DNA from: Alphaproteobacteria bacterium
GTDB lineage: Bacteria > Pseudomonadota > Alphaproteobacteria > Micropepsales > Micropepsaceae
Reading direction: 5' to 3'
Assembly: GCA_028871345.1 (NCBI GenBank)
Contig: JAGWNK010000003.1
Location: forward strand, 1 to 64,000
Length of the DNA: 64,000 bases
In this document: one piece after another, positions 5,132 through 34,585 of the stretch
Position numbering within the stretch: the stretch's first letter is position 1
Layout of the letters: every line of letters begins with the position of its first letter
Made by a program: the position numbers and the translations under genes
The notes under the pieces: generated by a model
Database searches by the model: none
Told to the model about the DNA's origin: nothing
What the model saw: only the letters and a program-made list of their open reading frames with translations

Positions 5132-6049
5132 TTAGCCTCGATATACTTCCACCAGCTTAGCCAGCAACTCCAACGCGTCCTTCTTCGTCCGTTGGAACGA
5201 GTTGCGGCCAATGATCGAGCCGTTGCCGCCGCCAGCCTTGATCGCCTTGGCCTCTTCGATGATACCGGCTTCGTCCTTCTTGGCTCCGCCTGAAAATACC
5301 ACGATGCGCCGACCGCCCAGCGCCGCCTTCATCACCAGCTTGATGCGGTCGGCGAGCGTATCGATCGCGACATTGCCCTTTTTGTAGAGCTCTCCCACGT
5401 CCTTCGCCTCGACGAAGGCGGTTGGCAGCTTCACCTTGATGATGTGCGCGCCCAGCAGCGCCGCCATCTGCGTGGCGTATGTGCAGATGTCGATGGCCGT
5501 CTCGCCTTCTTTGGAAAGATCCTCGCCGCGCGGATAGGACCAGATCACGGTCGGCAGGCCGACGTCCTTGGCCGCGGCCACGAATTCGCGCGCGGTCTCG
5601 AACATGTCATAGGACTTAAGCGAGCCCGGATAGATCGTCAGCCCCACCGCGCAGCATCCCAGCCGCAGCGCATCGCGCACCGTGGAGGTGACCGCCTGGG
5701 CCTTGGGGCCCTCCTTGGGATAAAGCAGGTTGGCGCTGTTGGCCTTCAGGATCAGCGGCACGCGCCCGGCGTAGGTCGAGGCGCCTGCCTCCAGCATGCC
5801 GAGCGGCGAGGCGAAGGCGGAAAGGCCGGCGTCGAGCGCCAGTTCAAAATGGTAATGAGGGTCGTAGGCCGGTGGGTTGGGCACGAAGCAGCGGTCCGGC
5901 CCGTGTTCGAAGCCCTGGTCCACGGGCAGGATGACGAGCTTGCCGGTGCCTCCCAGCCGCCCATGATAGAGAATTCGCGCAAGATTGGTCTTTACGCCCG
6001 GGTTGTCGCTTTCATACCAGCCTAGGATTGTCTGGACGGCGTCGGTCAT
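5132..6049 (-). CDS. fbaB: Class I fructose-bisphosphate aldolase (DhnA/FbaB type)
   Basis: 305 residues. The sequence has the archaeal-type class I aldolase pattern: LPVDQGFEHGP near residue 40, the Schiff-base Lys region IIKVKLPT near 200, and phosphate-binding loops VFSGGAKK and GSIIGRNSFQR near the C-terminus. It catalyses the same reaction as the class II enzyme encoded 1.4 kb downstream but through a lysine imine and without metal. It sits after pgk, separated by a strong intrinsic terminator, so it may have its own promoter. Having both classes could allow different direction or metal conditions to be served; that is inference. Confidence 0.93.
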   Translation of the reverse strand: MTDAVQTILGWYESDNPGVKTNLARILYHGRLGGTGKLVILPVDQGFEHGPDRCFVPNPPAYDPHYHFELALDAGLSAFASPLGMLEAGASTYAGRVPLILKANSANLLYPKEGPKAQAVTSTVRDALRLGCCAVGLTIYPGSLKSYDMFETAREFVAAAKDVGLPTVIWSYPRGEDLSKEGETAIDICTYATQMAALLGAHIIKVKLPTAFVEAKDVGELYKKGNVAIDTLADRIKLVMKAALGGRRIVVFSGGAKKDEAGIIEEAKAIKAGGGNGSIIGRNSFQRTKKDALELLAKLVEVYRG

Positions 6050-11477: not shown

Positions 11478-11641
11478 TGGACAGGCACTGCCCCGTGCGT
11501 CAGGAGCGTGATACCCAGGGGCCTTAATGGTACTCACCGGGAGCTGTCCCTGACCGGGGCCGTGGCCTCGGACATATGGCGCCCACCTGCACTTGCAGGC
11601 CCGTGAGGATCCACATCCAACGGCGGAGGCGGTCCTGTCCA
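11478..11641 (+). ncRNA. ssrS: 6S RNA
   Basis: A 164-nt stretch in the conserved site between zapA and the 5-formyltetrahydrofolate cyclo-ligase gene. Its ends pair as the closing stem: TGGACAGG (11478-11485) with CCTGTCCA (11634-11641), one bulged C, then ACTGCC with GGCGGT including one G-U pair. The interior has short G/C-rich half-stems such as ACCCAGGGG and CCGGGAG around an open central part, as expected for an RNA that mimics an open promoter and binds sigma70 RNA polymerase. The exact ends are inferred from pairing. The 3' arm overlaps the ribosome binding site and likely start of the next gene. Confidence 0.82.
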
Positions 11642-19640: not shown

Positions 19641-20786
19641 ATGTCCAGGGGCTTTCTTGCGGTTTTCTTGGCCGTCGCAGTCGTCACGCTGCCCGCCCCG
19701 GCATCGCTCAATTCCAATAGCGTCTTGACCGAAGCCCGCCGCGTCGCCGATTGGCAGCTGGCACAAATCGGCGATGCCGACCAGCTGGCATCGCTGAAGA
19801 ACAACGACCGTTCGTTGCGGGGCTGGGTGATGGGCGCCTTCGATGTCGGACTTTCGGCGCTTGCCGACAAGGATCCGAAATATGCCGAGATCATCTATGC
19901 CCAAGGCCGCAGGCAGGGATGGCAGCTCGGCGGGCGTCAATTCCACGCCGACGATCATGTCATTGCCCAGACCTGGATATGGGCCTACGAGCGCCGGCAC
20001 GATCCGGTGATGATCGCCGCTGTGCGCCGGACCTTCGACGCGGTGATTGCCGCCTCTCCCGATGTCCCGCTCGATTTCGTGTCCGACAGCGAAACTTCTT
20101 GCCAGGTCCGCTGGTGCTGATGCGACGCGCTGTTCATGGGGCCGCCCGCCTGGGCGGAGCTTTCCCGCGCCACCGGCGACGACCGGTATATCGCTTACGC
20201 CGACAAGGAATACTGGGCCACCGCGGCGAAACTGTTCGACGGCCAAGAGAAACTGTTCTACCGCGACTCACGCTTTATCGGGCAGCGCGGGCCCCATGGC
20301 GAGAAGATCTTCTGGGCGCGCGGCAACGGCTGGGTCTACGCTGGCTTGGCGCGCATGATCCGGTTCATCCCGGCGGCCGATCCGCGTCGCGCCCGCTATG
20401 TCGCACTGTTCGAGAAGATGTCGTCGCGCCTCGTTGGACTGCAGAAGCCCGACGGCTACTGGCCGGCGTCCCTGCTCGAGCCGCCCGCAGGCACGTCTCC
20501 TGAAACCAGCGGCACAGGCTTCTTCACCTATGGATTGGCGTGGGGCGTGCAGGCGGGTCTGCTGAAGGACCCCAAATTCCTGCGGACCGCGGTCCGCGGC
20601 TGGCATGCGATGGAAGCGGCTGTCCAGCCCGACGGCAGGCTGGGTTGGGTGCAGCCCATCGGTGCGGCGCCCGAAGACGTGACAAAGGACGACACACAAC
20701 TTTATGGCGTCGGTGCCTTTCTCCTCGCTGCCACGGCAATGGCCGACCTCACCGATGGCGGAGCGCCGAAGGAAACCCGGCCATGA
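19641..20786 (+). pseudogene. GH105/GH88-type unsaturated uronyl hydrolase, interrupted by TGA
   Basis: An otherwise intact 381-codon gene with a GGAAGGGAG ribosome binding site and a signal peptide (MSRGFLAVFLAVAVV). Codon 160 is TGA (20118-20120), inside what reads C-stop-CDALFMGPP; family members carry Trp there (CWCDALFM), so a single TGG to TGA change explains it. The Asp two codons later is in the region of the catalytic Asp of this family. After the stop the frame continues unbroken with family-like sequence (IFWARGNGWVYAGLARM, TSGTGFFTYGLAWGV). GH105 enzymes remove the unsaturated uronic acid from rhamnogalacturonan or related oligosaccharides. Stop overlaps the start of the DUF4861 gene (ATGA). 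Confidence 0.85.
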
Positions 20787-21763
20787 TGCCGCAGCTGGCA
20801 GCGATCTTCCTGTTCTGCTTCCCGGCTGGAGCGGTTGCTGCGCCGCTCACCATCCACAATCCGCAGGCCCTGGCGCGCGCGACAATCCCGGTGAAAAGCG
20901 GCAAAGGTTACCGCAAAGTCTCTTCCGTCGTGTCCGCCGCGCACGTCATTCACGACCCGCTCTTTCCCATCGAAGGGGCAGGTTGGGAGTCCGACCGTAT
21001 TGGCTATCGCGTCGATCTCGACAAGCGCAACGCCGTCGACATTTACGGCAAGAAGCGGCCTGCGGCCGTACTGCACAGGATCGGTCAGGGTAACGGCAGC
21101 TATCACGAAGAGGTGGCTTGGGGCATGGACATCTGGCGTGTTGGCGACAGCTTGGGCGCCGGGGCCTCGGCATGCTGCGCGACAACATGGCGACGCAGGT
21201 CGGCGATATGAAGCGGATGTCCGCAACCATCGCGGATTCCGGACCGGTGATTGCAACCATGCGCATCGTTGCCGACGGCTTCGTGGTCGACCGCCGGGCG
21301 TGCAGCCTTACGGCCTCGTACACCATTGCCGCCGGATCGCGCCTTTTCATGGTTTCGGCTTCGGCCAGTCCGCGCACACCGCTGGTGGCCGGCTTCGGGA
21401 AATATCCGTACGCCACATTTTTCCGGTCTGCGGGCAAATCGGGCTGGGGCTGTATGGCCGACAGGGGGGCGCCAGAGCGAGAACGACAAGGATGTCGTGG
21501 GGGCAGCGTTGTTCTTTCCTCGGTCTGGCATCGCACGCCGCGGCGACGATGGCCGCAGCTACTACATCGTTTTCAAGGACCCGGCGCGGGGGCGCTACGC
21601 CTTTGCGGCCGTCTGGGCGAAGGATTCTGGCGGGATCCGCGACCAGAAGAGCTTTGCGGCGTTCGTTGAGCGCACCGTCCGGCAGTTGAATGCGCCCTGT
21701 CCGTCTCCGCGCGGTAGCGGCGAGCATTATCGGAATTTGATGCTTGGCCGCGCAAGCATCTGA
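20783..21763 (+). pseudogene. DUF4861-family secreted protein, two frameshifts
   Basis: The protein reads through three segments in two frames. Frame A runs from the ATG at 20783 with signal peptide MMPQLAAIFLFCFPAG to about 21160 (GDSLGAG). Sequence then continues in another frame (GLGMLRDNMATQVGD to SGWGCMADRG), and from about 21470 returns to frame A (SENDKDVVGAALFFP to the stop at 21763). The breaks fall in G-runs at 21161-21164 (one G too few) and 21464-21469 (one G too many). Restored length is about 326 residues. DUF4861 proteins commonly accompany GH105 enzymes in pectin-use loci; their activity is not established here. Translationally coupled to the interrupted GH105 gene. Confidence 0.8.
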
Positions 21764-21930: not shown

Positions 21931-23136
21931 ATGAAAAATATAACCATCGCCTTCGCAGGCATTTTGTCTGCTGCAGCGCTTTGCGCGGCAGCTGTTGCTC
22001 AGCCCACCATGATGACTCGACCGGAAGTCGAAGTTTCTCACAATGTCTTTCACGTCGCGGTCTGCGGCCGCAACGTGCCAGTCGGCGTCGCACGCTGCTT
22101 CGCTCATGTGGTGACCGACCGCTCGGGCCGCATCCTTCCCGGCAAGATCAAGCCGAACGTCGTGCCCGCGGGTTACGGCCCGGCACAGCTGCGCTCGGCT
22201 TATGCGATCACGACCACGGGCAGCTTCTCGACGATCATCGCGATCGTCGATGCCTACGGCTACAACAACGCCGAGAGCGATCTCGCCACCTACCGCGCGC
22301 AGTTCGGACTGCCGCCCTGCACGGTGAGCAACGGCTGCTTCCGCAAGATCAATCAGAACGGCCAGCAAAGCAATTATCCGCGGCAAGACACGGGCTGGGC
22401 GCAGGAGAGCGCGCTCGATCTCGACATGGCGAGCGCCATGTGCCCGAACTGCAGAGTCTATCTGGTCGAAGCCAACTCCGCGTCGCTCTACGATCTGGCG
22501 ACGGCGGAGAACAGGGCGGCTTGGCTCGGCGCACACGTCATCAGCAACAGCTACGGCGGCGACGAGTCGGGGACGCAGAGCTATGAGAGCGCCTACAACC
22601 ACTCGGGCGTAGCGATTACCGCCAGCTCCGGCGACAGCGGCTATGCGGGGGGCGTGGAGTTCCCCGCCTCTTCGCCGCATGTGACGGCGACCGGCGGTAC
22701 CAGCCTGTATCGCGCCAGCAATGCACGCGGCTGGTCCGAGACCGTGTGGTCCGGAGCCGGCTCCGGCTGCTCGAGCGTCTACTACAAGCCGACCTGGCAG
22801 AAGGATCAGTTGTGCGGCATGCGCATGGTCGCCGACGTCTCGGCGGTGGCCGATCCCTCGACCGGCGTGGCGGTCTACGGGCCCGTCACCTACTCGACGT
22901 CCGGCTGGCAGGTCTACGGCGGCACCAGCGTGGCGGCGCCGCTGATCGGCGGCATCTACGCCAACAATGGCGGCTCGGTGACTTACGGCTCCAACCCGTA
23001 CGCCAACCAGACCCATCTGTTTGACGTGACGTCCGGTTCCAACGGCAGCTGCGGCGGCACCTATTTCTGCACCGGCGAGATCGGTTATGACGGGCCTTCG
23101 GGCCTGGGCACGCCCGACGGCATCGGTGCGTTCTGA
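21931..23136 (+). CDS. Sedolisin-like (S53) serine-carboxyl peptidase
   Basis: 401 residues with signal peptide MKNITIAFAGILSAAALC. The sedolisin triad is visible: Glu159 and Asp163 in WAQESALDLDMA (ExxxD) and Ser333 in YGGTSVAAP, with the oxyanion Asp235 in ASSGDSG. The C-terminal region has an Asp-rich turn near RMVADVSAVADPSTG. Such enzymes are acid-active endopeptidases, normally secreted. The usual long N-terminal pro-domain (over 150 residues) is mostly absent; only about 75 residues separate the signal from the catalytic domain. Eight or more cysteines suggest disulfides. A strong terminator follows the stop codon. Confidence 0.88.
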   Translation: MKNITIAFAGILSAAALCAAAVAQPTMMTRPEVEVSHNVFHVAVCGRNVPVGVARCFAHVVTDRSGRILPGKIKPNVVPAGYGPAQLRSAYAITTTGSFSTIIAIVDAYGYNNAESDLATYRAQFGLPPCTVSNGCFRKINQNGQQSNYPRQDTGWAQESALDLDMASAMCPNCRVYLVEANSASLYDLATAENRAAWLGAHVISNSYGGDESGTQSYESAYNHSGVAITASSGDSGYAGGVEFPASSPHVTATGGTSLYRASNARGWSETVWSGAGSGCSSVYYKPTWQKDQLCGMRMVADVSAVADPSTGVAVYGPVTYSTSGWQVYGGTSVAAPLIGGIYANNGGSVTYGSNPYANQTHLFDVTSGSNGSCGGTYFCTGEIGYDGPSGLGTPDGIGAF

Positions 23137-23234: not shown

Positions 23235-24785
23235 TTGATCCTGCGTCGTTCGATACCGGCCTCCGGCCCGCGCCAAGCGGGCTTTTTGTATATTTTCCTC
23301 TGCTCGGTCGGATTGCTCGTCGTCGCCCGCGATGCGGCGGCCCAGACCCAGCCGCCGCCCGTGCCTGCGGTGCTCAACAACGTGTCGCTCAGTGAAGACA
23401 AGAGCGAGATTCGCCTGACCTTTTCACCGGTGGCGCCGAAATTCTCGATCGTCAAGAACGACGCGGACTCGACGGCCGTCGGCTTTGCGATGTCGTCGCG
23501 TTCGCCCAGCGCCCTGGTGCCCACCAAGCTGGGCACGGTGCTGCGCTCGCTGACCTTCGAGCAGCAGGGCAGCGTGCTGATCCTGCGGATTCACACGGCC
23601 GCGGCGGAGAAGATCGCTGCCGCCCCGGCGGGTCCCGCCACCATTGCCATCAAGATCGGCACCGGAAGCGACAAGCCCGCCGACAAGGTGGCGGAGCGCG
23701 CCGCATCTCTGCCGGCGGCGCCGTCGCCGAAAGCCGAGGGCGACGATTTCGTCGTCGTGCCGCTCAAATACGCGGACGTCAGCGAAGTGGTGGGTCTTCT
23801 CACCAACGGCGCGACCATCAAGTCGAACGACAATTTCACGCCCAATGAGCCCGACTTCGGCTCGGCCGGCATGGGAGGCACGCAGACCTACGCGCCGCAG
23901 CCGCCTCCGACGCCCGAGACGCAGGGTGAGCCGCTGGGACAATCGGTCGACGACACGATCGCCGTCGACCGCCGTCTCAACGCCATCATCCTGAAAGGCT
24001 CGCCCGAGCAGATCGCGCGCATGAAGGCCAAGATCGCCGAGATCGACGTGCCGGTGAAGAGCGTCCTGCTCGAGACAGTGTTCGTCGAGCTGACGAACAA
24101 TGCCGCCAAGGCGGTGGGCCTCGACTTCAACAATGCATCGGGGCAGATCGGTGTCGCCACGCTGCAGACCGGACAGTTCATTCCTTCTGGTCTGCCGACC
24201 GACAAGCCGCTGAGCAGCGCCGCGCTGCAGGCCGCGATCTATGCCGAGGTCGTCAAGGGCAACGGCCGCATCGTCTCCAAGCCGCGCATCGCCGCGCAGA
24301 GCGGCTCGACCGCCAAGATCATCACGGGCGACGCCCTGCCGATCCTGACCTCGATCGCGCTGTCTGGCGTCAACGGCGTCTCGCAGCAGGTGCAATACGT
24401 CAATGTCGGCGTCACGCTGCAGATCGCGCCGCGCGTCAGCGACGACGGCTTCGTCACCTCGCACGTCTTCTGCGTCGTCTCGAGCGTCACCGGCTATTCG
24501 CAGGGCTACCCGACGATCAGCCAGCGCAAGGCGGAAACCTCGGTCACGGTCCACGACGGCGAGCCGTTCGTTATCGGTGGACTGACGCAGGAAAACGACA
24601 TGGCGAACGACAACAAGGTACCCGTGCTCGGCGATGTGCCGTTGCTCGGCAGGCTGTTCACGACGCACAGGAGCACGGATTCGAAAACCGAGCTCTACAT
24701 CGTCGTCACGCCGCACGTCGTGCACGGCGGCGTGCCGGCGCCGGAAGTTCCCGGCGCTGCGCCGCCGCCGGCAGCGGGGAACTGA
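23235..24785 (+). CDS. Orphan secretin (GspD/PilQ-type domain protein)
   Basis: 516 residues. Residues 1-37 contain a signal peptide (GFLYIFLCSVGLLVVA). An AMIN-like N-terminal domain (about 45-145) is followed by a linker and an N1/STN-like domain (ILKGSPEQIARMKAKIAEID near 255). The secretin core covers about 275-495: VFVELTNNAAKAVGLDF, NGRIVSKPRIAAQSGSTAKI and the closing QENDMANDNKVPVLGDVPLLGRLF with the VPLLG signature. Secretins form outer-membrane rings for type II secretion, type IV pili or Tad. No inner-membrane platform, ATPase or pseudopilin is nearby, so partners are elsewhere or it acts alone. GTG and ATG alternatives at the start were not separable. Confidence 0.85.
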   Translation: MILRRSIPASGPRQAGFLYIFLCSVGLLVVARDAAAQTQPPPVPAVLNNVSLSEDKSEIRLTFSPVAPKFSIVKNDADSTAVGFAMSSRSPSALVPTKLGTVLRSLTFEQQGSVLILRIHTAAAEKIAAAPAGPATIAIKIGTGSDKPADKVAERAASLPAAPSPKAEGDDFVVVPLKYADVSEVVGLLTNGATIKSNDNFTPNEPDFGSAGMGGTQTYAPQPPPTPETQGEPLGQSVDDTIAVDRRLNAIILKGSPEQIARMKAKIAEIDVPVKSVLLETVFVELTNNAAKAVGLDFNNASGQIGVATLQTGQFIPSGLPTDKPLSSAALQAAIYAEVVKGNGRIVSKPRIAAQSGSTAKIITGDALPILTSIALSGVNGVSQQVQYVNVGVTLQIAPRVSDDGFVTSHVFCVVSSVTGYSQGYPTISQRKAETSVTVHDGEPFVIGGLTQENDMANDNKVPVLGDVPLLGRLFTTHRSTDSKTELYIVVTPHVVHGGVPAPEVPGAAPPPAAGN

Positions 24786-31498: not shown

Positions 31499-32953
31499 TC
31501 AGACGCCGCGCAACAGCGCCGGGCGCTTCTCCGACAGCTTGAGCACCAGTTCGCCGAACAGGCTGTTGGCCCAGGCGAACCAGGGCCGGGTGTATTTCGA
31601 GGCGTCGTCCTTGTCGAAGGCCTCGTGCATGAAGCCCGTGCCGTCATCGGTTCTGGCCAACATGCGCAGGCAGCCGAGGATTTCCGAATCGTCGTTGCTG
31701 GTCAGGGCGCGCATGATGAGCCCCATAGGCCAGATGCGCCCGGCCGGGCTGTGCGGGCTGCCCAGGCCTTCGGCCGCCGAACCCTGGAAGAACCACGGGT
31801 TGTCTTGGCTCAGCACCAGCGCGCGGGTGGCGCGGTAGACGGGGTCGCCCGCCGCGCAGCAGCCCAGATAGGGCAGCGACAAGAGGTTCGGCACATTGGC
31901 GTCGTCGATGCACAAGCGGTTGCCGTAGCCGTCGACCTCGTAGGCGTAGACCGCACCGTGACGCGGGTGGTCGACCACGGCGTATCGGCGCAAGGCGGTT
32001 TCGACTTCGTCCGCCAACGCACGGCATTGGGCGACGAAGCGCTGATCGCTGAACAGGACCGCATGCATCTCGGCCAGCTGGCGCAGGGAGGCCACGGCGA
32101 AGAAGTTCGAGGCCACCAGGAAGGGGAAGATGGCGGCATCGTCCGAGGGGCGGAAGATCGACACGATCAGGCCGACCGGACGAATGGGGTTTCCCAGGCC
32201 TTGTCGCGGCACTGAATCGGGATTCCACCCCGTGACGCGTTCGAAGCTGTAGGGGCCGTCACCGCTCTTGCGTTGCTGCGCGCGCAGCGTGTCGAGGATC
32301 AGATGCGAGGCTTGCCGCCAGGCCGCATCGAAACAGGACGCATCCTTCGTCCGCCGCCAATAGCCGTGAGCCAGGCGGACCGTGTAGCACAGCGAATCTA
32401 GTTCCCATTTGCGCTCGTGGATTTCGGGCTTCATCACTGTCTGGTCGCCGGCGAAAGGCGAGCCGGTCGGGTCCTTGTTGAAGGCGTTGGCATAGGGATC
32501 GATCAGGATGCATTTGGTTTGGCGGTTGATGACTCCGGCCAGGAGCTGGCGCAGCATCGCGTCCTTCGTCGCCAGCGTCAGATAGGGCCAGACCTGCGCA
32601 CTCGAATCGCGCAACCACATGGCCGCGATGTCGCCGGTGATCACGAATGTGTCCGGACGGCCGTCGAGCAGTCCGAAGTCGACGGTCGAATCCAGTGTGT
32701 TGGGAAAGCACTTCTCGAACATTTCGCCGAGCCGCCCGCGGGGGCCGGTCAAGGCGCGTATGCGGGCGATGGTTTCTTCCACGGCCCTGCTGGTGAAGCG
32801 CGGTTCGGCGGGACGCCGGGTGAGCGGCGGCATCGGCGCCGGCGCCGCGGTCGCCGCTTGCGCGGGGCGTGAGGGCATCGCGGCGGCGAGCGCGCCGGCC
32901 AGGATGGCGCGGCGCAGGGGGTCTGTCTTCGCGCGAGAGGTTTCCTGGATCAT
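31499..32953 (-). CDS. GH125 exo-alpha-1,6-mannosidase
   Basis: 484 residues from the ATG of MIQETSRAKTDPLRRA. The N-terminus has a twin-arginine-like LRRAILAGALAAAM segment followed by APA-rich linker, so export is likely. The catalytic region matches the Mug157/GH125 family: DTFVITGDIAAMWLRDSSAQVWPY, KWELDSLCYTVRLAHGYW, VTGWNPDSVPRQGLGNPIRP, HEAFDKDDASKYTRPWFAWANSLFGEL. GH125 enzymes remove alpha-1,6-linked mannose from N-glycans or fungal mannans. It converges with the SDR gene and lies next to GH28 on the same strand. Confidence 0.92.
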   Translation of the reverse strand: MIQETSRAKTDPLRRAILAGALAAAMPSRPAQAATAAPAPMPPLTRRPAEPRFTSRAVEETIARIRALTGPRGRLGEMFEKCFPNTLDSTVDFGLLDGRPDTFVITGDIAAMWLRDSSAQVWPYLTLATKDAMLRQLLAGVINRQTKCILIDPYANAFNKDPTGSPFAGDQTVMKPEIHERKWELDSLCYTVRLAHGYWRRTKDASCFDAAWRQASHLILDTLRAQQRKSGDGPYSFERVTGWNPDSVPRQGLGNPIRPVGLIVSIFRPSDDAAIFPFLVASNFFAVASLRQLAEMHAVLFSDQRFVAQCRALADEVETALRRYAVVDHPRHGAVYAYEVDGYGNRLCIDDANVPNLLSLPYLGCCAAGDPVYRATRALVLSQDNPWFFQGSAAEGLGSPHSPAGRIWPMGLIMRALTSNDDSEILGCLRMLARTDDGTGFMHEAFDKDDASKYTRPWFAWANSLFGELVLKLSEKRPALLRGV

Positions 32954-33014
32954 CACTGCCCCCGGATGCGGCAAGTCTACGCCGGAACAGGCGCCGCAGC
33001 GATCCTTCGCCGGC

Positions 33015-34493
33015 TCAAGGCCGCACGCAAGTGCCGCTCGTATCCGGCCCGAATTTCACGTCCGGGCGCGATTCTCCCGCCGCGCGCGGGAAATGGACAT
33101 CGATCATGGTCAGGCCGCTGACGTGCCGCGTCCACAAGCCGTAGGCCGGCATCACGTTGGCCCGGCCGAACATAGGCGGATCGGGATAGTCCGCGCGCTT
33201 TTCCGGAATGGCCGCATCGTCGAGGACCGGCAAGTCGGCGGCCGCCATGGGAAGCGTCACGTCGCGCAGCAGCACGTCGCGGATCTGCGCCCCTTGGACA
33301 CCGGTGAAATAGGAGCCGCGCATGCCGTTGTCGGCGCCGGTGATGTGAGCAAAGACGATCTGGCGGATGACGCCGGGGGCGGGGCGCGGCTGTTCCGGCC
33401 GCACGCGGCCGCGATCGCCGAGGCGCAGGAACAGCGGGCTTTCGCTGCGCACGATGCGGGCGTTGCGCACCACCAGCCGTTCGACGATGCCGCCGTCGAC
33501 GCTCTCCCACGAGACGCCGCCGTCGGCCTTGCGCATGTTCAGGACGCGCGTGCCGGGTGCCGGCCCGCCGAGTTCGACGTTGCGCACCAGCACGTTGCGG
33601 AAATCGCCCTGGCTGTCGGTGCCGAACTTCAGCGCGTTGCAGCTGGAATAGATGCGGCAGTTCTCGACCAGCACCCGCTCCATCGGGCGCTCGCTGGCGC
33701 CTTTGAAGCACAAGCCGTCGTCCTCCGAGCTGATGTGGCAGTTGCGCACGATCACGCGGCGGCAGCCGTCGATGTCCGCGCCGTCGTTGTTGACGTTGGC
33801 CTGGTTCTCGACCTGGATGCCGTCGATCAGCATATCCTCGCAATTGAGGTAATTCTGCATCCAGCACGGCGAGTCCTTGAGGCGGATGTCGCGCAGCGTC
33901 ACCTGGCGGCAATCGATGACGCGGATCAGGAACGGGCGGCCAGGCGTCGGTCCGCTGGTTTCCTCGCCCGGGAAGTTGTCGCGTGTGCCGCGGCCGTCGA
34001 TCTGGCCCTTGCCGCATATGCCAATGCGCTCGCAGCCTTCCGCGAAGATCAGCGACTGGTTCATCGCCATGTTGCTGTCCATCACCGTCGGACGGCGGGC
34101 GACGTGGTCCGGGTAGTCGCGCAAGTCGGTGCTGCCGAGCAGGCGCGCGCCTTCGGCGATCTCGAGCATGACGCCGCTGCGCAGCACCAAGGTGCCGCTG
34201 ACGTAATCGCCCTCGGCCAGCCGTACCGTACCGCCGCCTGCGGCCGCACAGGCTTCGATCGCCTGCTGGATCGCCGCGGTGGCGAGCGCGCCGGCGCGAT
34301 GGCCGAAGTCCTCCGGCCGGAAGCGGCGCGGCGGGACGGGCCAGGCCTTCAGCGTACGATCGAGCTGCGCCGCCATGCGGTCGAGGTCGCGCTCCAGCCG
34401 GCCGGCCCAGCGCGGCGCCGCACACGCAGCCATGACCGCCTGAGGGACGGCCAGGACGGCGGTGACGGCTGTGCCGAAGAGGAGGCGACTCAT
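33015..34493 (-). CDS. GH28-type polygalacturonase family protein
   Basis: 492 residues with signal peptide MSRLLFGTAVTAVLAV ending near VMAAC. After a helical segment it folds as a right-handed beta-helix with repeated VENCRIYSS, NVLVRNVEL-like coils. Catalytic-region signatures: NVNNDGADIDGC, HISSEDDGLCFKG and SCNALKFGTDSQG, which give the acidic residues typical of GH28. Family members hydrolyse galacturonan or modified pectins. Together with GH105 and DUF4861 13 kb away it suggests pectin use. It is followed 61 bp later by GH125 on the same strand. Confidence 0.87.
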   Translation of the reverse strand: MSRLLFGTAVTAVLAVPQAVMAACAAPRWAGRLERDLDRMAAQLDRTLKAWPVPPRRFRPEDFGHRAGALATAAIQQAIEACAAAGGGTVRLAEGDYVSGTLVLRSGVMLEIAEGARLLGSTDLRDYPDHVARRPTVMDSNMAMNQSLIFAEGCERIGICGKGQIDGRGTRDNFPGEETSGPTPGRPFLIRVIDCRQVTLRDIRLKDSPCWMQNYLNCEDMLIDGIQVENQANVNNDGADIDGCRRVIVRNCHISSEDDGLCFKGASERPMERVLVENCRIYSSCNALKFGTDSQGDFRNVLVRNVELGGPAPGTRVLNMRKADGGVSWESVDGGIVERLVVRNARIVRSESPLFLRLGDRGRVRPEQPRPAPGVIRQIVFAHITGADNGMRGSYFTGVQGAQIRDVLLRDVTLPMAAADLPVLDDAAIPEKRADYPDPPMFGRANVMPAYGLWTRHVSGLTMIDVHFPRAAGESRPDVKFGPDTSGTCVRP

Positions 34494-34585
34494 ACCGGCC
34501 CTCACCAAGTTGCTCCCTGACTTGAACGCGACGCCGGTGCCGCGGTTTCACGAAGCATGCCGTGGTACCCTGCCGCTCCCAATCC

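Follow-up and report, generated by a model that had tools for sequence, protein, structure and literature searches.

Disabling lesions in an overlapping, single-copy GH105–DUF4861 gene pair suggest recent pseudogenisation

The window analysed here, a stretch of 64,000 nucleotides, is part of a contig of 155,411 bases (C103) from a genome of 3.9 Mb (113 contigs, estimated 99.94% complete). Inside this contig, and not at its edge, two genes of glycan metabolism lie in tandem (Table 1). The frame of the first, a member of family GH105, extends from an ATG at 19641 to a TGA at 20784-20786, and the latter falls within a short overlap (20783-20786) that also supplies the start codon of the second, a DUF4861 gene (ATG, 20783). 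No second functional copy of either gene was found in the genome. Homology statements for DUF4861 are made, unless otherwise indicated, against its closest homologue, L016 (MAG fen_915, 381 aa).

Table 1. Features of the GH105–DUF4861 locus, in window positions
Feature	Position	Strand	Basis or remark
GH105 / GH88-clan unsaturated glycuronyl hydrolase gene (PF07470)	19641..20786	+	Interrupted by a nonsense codon; the genome's sole match to the family
TGA, codon 160, at an invariant Trp (equivalent of YteR Trp141), two residues before the catalytic Asp	20118..20120	+	Frame reading and alignment of homologues
DUF4861 gene (PF16153), broken; the genome's only DUF4861 locus	20783..21763	+	Overlaps GH105 gene by 4 bp (ATGA)
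LTIHNP stub, then junction of an in-frame gap of ~69 codons	20846..20870	+	Relative to L016
G-run at which DUF4861 passes from the frame of 20783 into that of 20785	21161..21164	+	Profile pieces, codon-usage HMM, alignment to L016
TGA closing the frame entered at the DUF4861 ATG (product of 142 aa)	21209..21211	+	Frame reading
G-run where the original DUF4861 frame resumes	21464..21469	+	Profile pieces, codon-usage HMM, alignment to L016

The surrounding genes offer a varied context. Upstream lies a phosphatase that is near-universal across the genus. Downstream, a 401-residue protein devoid of Pfam matches (21931-23136, +) carries SGDSG and GGTSVAAP motifs and, by eye, resembles sedolisin-type (S53) peptidases; it is followed by a stand-alone secretin-domain protein (23235-24785, +), whose best matches among the searched genus genomes are at most 36% identical. 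Because these secretin matches are so distant, flanking synteny yielded no empty-site comparison. The genome's only GH28 gene (33015-34508, -), which is intact, is found about 11 kb downstream of the pair and adjoins a GH125 alpha-mannosidase gene (31499-32974). A 6S RNA (RF00013, 61.3 bits) is encoded at 11482-11639 (+). The earlier description of the neighbours as intact held for those that were tested. Disruption by a mobile element was considered and rejected, the repeats at 18-24 kb amounting to weak matches only. Among 37 genus genomes searched, including this one, only five matched the GH105 protein of the window, a distribution consistent with dispensability.

The GH105 gene scores above the curated PF07470 cut-off across the whole domain (224.6 bits, profile positions 3-349 of 352), and its frame contains a single internal stop; the part before the TGA scores 28.6 bits and the part after it 188.8 bits. 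In an alignment of 42 homologues, drawn from named genomes and from genus-mates, every sequence has Trp at the column of the stop, within the motif RW[CSA]W[CAS]D[AS]LFM or close variants of it (for example RWCWCDALFM). The earlier note had read this codon as a TGA in place of a family Trp, and had proposed comparison with related genomes; that comparison bears the reading out. The corresponding YteR residues, Trp141 and Asp143, belong to a published list of active-site positions that are conserved and implicated by experiment (PMC4528949). The frame is thus broken at the active-site Trp, before it can reach the catalytic Asp, and the shortened 159-residue product has neither that Asp nor any of the C-terminal half.

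In the DUF4861 gene, the core domain is interrupted by two frame breaks. The Pfam profile matches in three pieces and two frames (20912-21178, 21151-21411 and 21464-21700; 81.9, 33.9 and 30.3 bits, each above the curated cut-off of 22.3), together covering profile positions 104-378. Aligned singly to the closest homologue, which is itself uninterrupted, the pieces correspond to residues 97-198, 200-297 and 300-376 with 72%, 57% and 61% identity, and are therefore nearly contiguous within it. Long ORFs of this genome were used to train an ab initio HMM of codon usage, which leaves the frame at 21162/21163 and comes back to it at 21473, in both cases beside the G-runs of Table 1. Loss and return of the frame are accordingly shown independently by homology and by codon usage. 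The earlier note had called the two G-run indels compensating. Arithmetically the second does restore the frame, but functional compensation was rejected: the start-codon frame meets one TGA soon after the first break and another at 21248-21250, and the presence of two stops in the intervening frame means that no full-length product results.

A further difference, absent from the earlier note, is an in-frame gap of about 207 bp near 20866, which takes out nearly all of the N-terminal domain of DUF4861 (profile positions 7-103, approximately). The closest homologue matches the full profile (1-380 of 380), whereas the window sequence matches from position 104. After the signal peptide, the residues LTIHNP are identical to the N-terminus of the homologue, and the sequence then jumps to about its residue 98; this identity points to a deletion and not to an alternative start. 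The tetranucleotide ATCC stands on both sides of the inferred junction, and a short-homology deletion is a possible origin of the gap. Since the DUF4861 proteins of L024, L026 and G007 naturally lack the N-terminal domain and begin near profile position 118-120, such a deletion alone might be tolerated and need not inactivate the gene.

What the intact pair would have acted upon bears on its earlier description as pectin genes, a label that these results support only loosely. Akin to characterized GH105 enzymes (PF07470; YteR, 1NC5/2GH4; 4CE7; 5NOA), the window gene has, apart from the stop, a full-length match, the WxD motif region and a conserved C-terminal half; it departs from them in the TGA at the active-site Trp. 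Among solved chains, 4CE7 (E 6e-52), which is an unsaturated 3S-rhamnoglycuronyl hydrolase, and 5NOA lie closest to its C-terminal half, whereas the pectin enzyme YteR gives only 2e-6. On the strength of these similarities the substrate may have been a glycan of the rhamnose-glucuronate type rather than a pectin backbone. As for DUF4861, the literature searched held no paper on its function, and no PDB relative was found by sequence. Among its relatives (PF16153), separate as in L016 or fused as in L033 and G007, adjacency to GH105 is likewise seen, and from them the window gene differs in the reduction of its N-terminal domain to a stub and in the loss and recovery of its frame. L016:82-2607 encodes a fusion of GH105 with a BNR_4 domain, and a separate DUF4861 gene follows directly; single proteins that join GH105 to DUF4861 occur in L033, L009 and other Massilia/Duganella loci, the fusion of L033 keeping nearly the whole DUF4861 profile and that of L009 (genome G007) only the part from position 118. 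The present genome has no BNR_4 domain. Loss of such a partner is not claimed, the GH105 proteins of G033 and G026 being also without it.

All pieces of both genes retain the character of coding DNA. GC3 is 0.75-0.80 in every piece, and the out-of-frame piece of DUF4861 keeps the excess of third-position differences typical of coding sequence (differences to L016 at the three codon positions of 0.34/0.24/0.48, against 0.20/0.17/0.49 and 0.27/0.30/0.52 in the flanking pieces). In GH105, four of 76 otherwise invariant positions are changed, one of them being the stop, and intact relatives show zero to five such changes (up to 5/77); relative-rate counts gave no consistent acceleration. Because codon bias, third-position excess and identity to relatives persist throughout, the lesions appear to be either recent or artefactual, and these signatures indicate that, whatever their nature, they are recent.

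The weight of three point lesions depends upon how often genes are broken elsewhere in the assembly. A frame-scan covered stretches of this genome that add up to about 739 kb, window included. Its filter passed 25 candidates, of which the DUF4861 gene alone looked like neither a boundary between genes nor a shadow of the opposite strand when the joined translations were read by eye rather than searched for homology. Of 150 simulated single-base indels, 105 are called before filtering and 50 survive it, and this sensitivity of about 33% bounds the number of other frameshifts at roughly fewer than nine per 739 kb. Within the sample, 1878 G/C runs of at least four sit inside intact long ORFs. Across four large families of the genome, about 112 genes in all (21 TonB, approximately 30 MFS, 41 ABC and 20 SDR), one other broken gene was found, an apparently frame-broken MFS transporter on a 6.2-kb contig (L093, G000:C29, about 5175-5819, -). 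Against this background, an overlapping pair with three lesions in 1.4 kb shows a strong local excess. A single-contig genus-mate (G028) proved unsuitable as a clean control for the scan, with 37 filtered candidates in 400 kb (L096-L115) as opposed to 25 in 739 kb here, a surplus that indel errors of long reads might explain.

Taken together, three point lesions and a domain deletion in one pair, set against a low background, make loss of function the best-supported reading: the single-copy GH105 and DUF4861 genes were probably functional until recently and have since been inactivated. The GH105 message would end just short of the codon for the catalytic Asp, giving only the short stub, while that of DUF4861 would lose its frame at the first G-run and yield a 142-residue stub already devoid of the N-terminal domain. 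The pair thus carries disabling lesions relative to its intact homologues, as pseudogenes do, and the reading is strengthened in that homopolymer error explains neither the nonsense change, a substitution, nor the gap of some 207 bp. From this we infer that the lesions are present in the DNA of the organism and that they arose after selection had relaxed. Recent bacterial pseudogenes and singleton frameshifted genes (PMC2916853, PMC3711429) are alike in their isolated lesions, their retained coding signatures and the lack of a conserved frameshift in relatives. Nothing material separates the present case from them, save that two overlapping genes are hit together, and it looks like ordinary gene decay.

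The leading alternative, to which we give a minor yet appreciable chance, is that the single-base lesions are errors of consensus or base-calling, for instance where coverage is locally low or strains are mixed, and that, a harmless N-terminal shortening of DUF4861 aside, both genes are intact. Of the four differences, three involve a single base, and two of these are changes in G-run length, a class of error known to create false pseudogenes (PMC2916853). Moreover, an artefact would look the same as a recent lesion, since every piece keeps its coding signatures and identity and no long-term acceleration is seen; the expectation that sequencing errors outnumber true indels among homology-confirmed singleton frameshifts (Antonov et al., PMC3711429) also counts against real lesions. 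Against this stand the low frameshift background of the assembly, the presence of a substitution among the lesions and the position of the locus inside a 155-kb contig, away from its edge. The earlier note had suggested a locus losing function, with base-calling error in the two G-runs as the alternative; the former is now favoured, with a lesser chance left to the latter.

In an intermediate case only the G-run changes would be errors; the TGA and the N-terminal deletion would be genuine, leaving GH105 dead and DUF4861 intact but short. The classes of change do differ in this way, the G-run changes being of the homopolymer-miscall type and the other two not, and N-terminally short DUF4861 proteins exist, but two such errors within one gene are improbable given the measured background, and we consider this case unlikely.

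Very improbable is recoding, by which UGA would be read as an amino acid and programmed frameshifting of DUF4861 would allow both proteins to be made; its sole support is the conservation of the downstream pieces. UGA recoding, including selenocysteine, was rejected, as no SelB scored above cut-off in a profile search of the genome (best 101.6 bits versus 242.25), TGA terminates ordinary genes throughout the window and the sampled loci, and none of the 42 GH105 homologues has a stop at the codon-160 column. Programmed frameshifting was rejected in view of the uninterrupted closest homologue and the two stops noted above. We know of no precedent for two opposite programmed shifts in one gene. 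That both genes are still expressed through readthrough at the active-site Trp and a double shift, or that the stubs have a regulatory role, is more improbable still.

Recent pseudogenisation of the pair therefore remains the reading we prefer, and it bears on how the genome is annotated: until reads confirm the sequence, no working GH105/DUF4861 step should be credited to the organism. If the lesions are real, the locus would illustrate how an accessory pair for polysaccharide degradation is being lost when both of its overlapping genes are hit.
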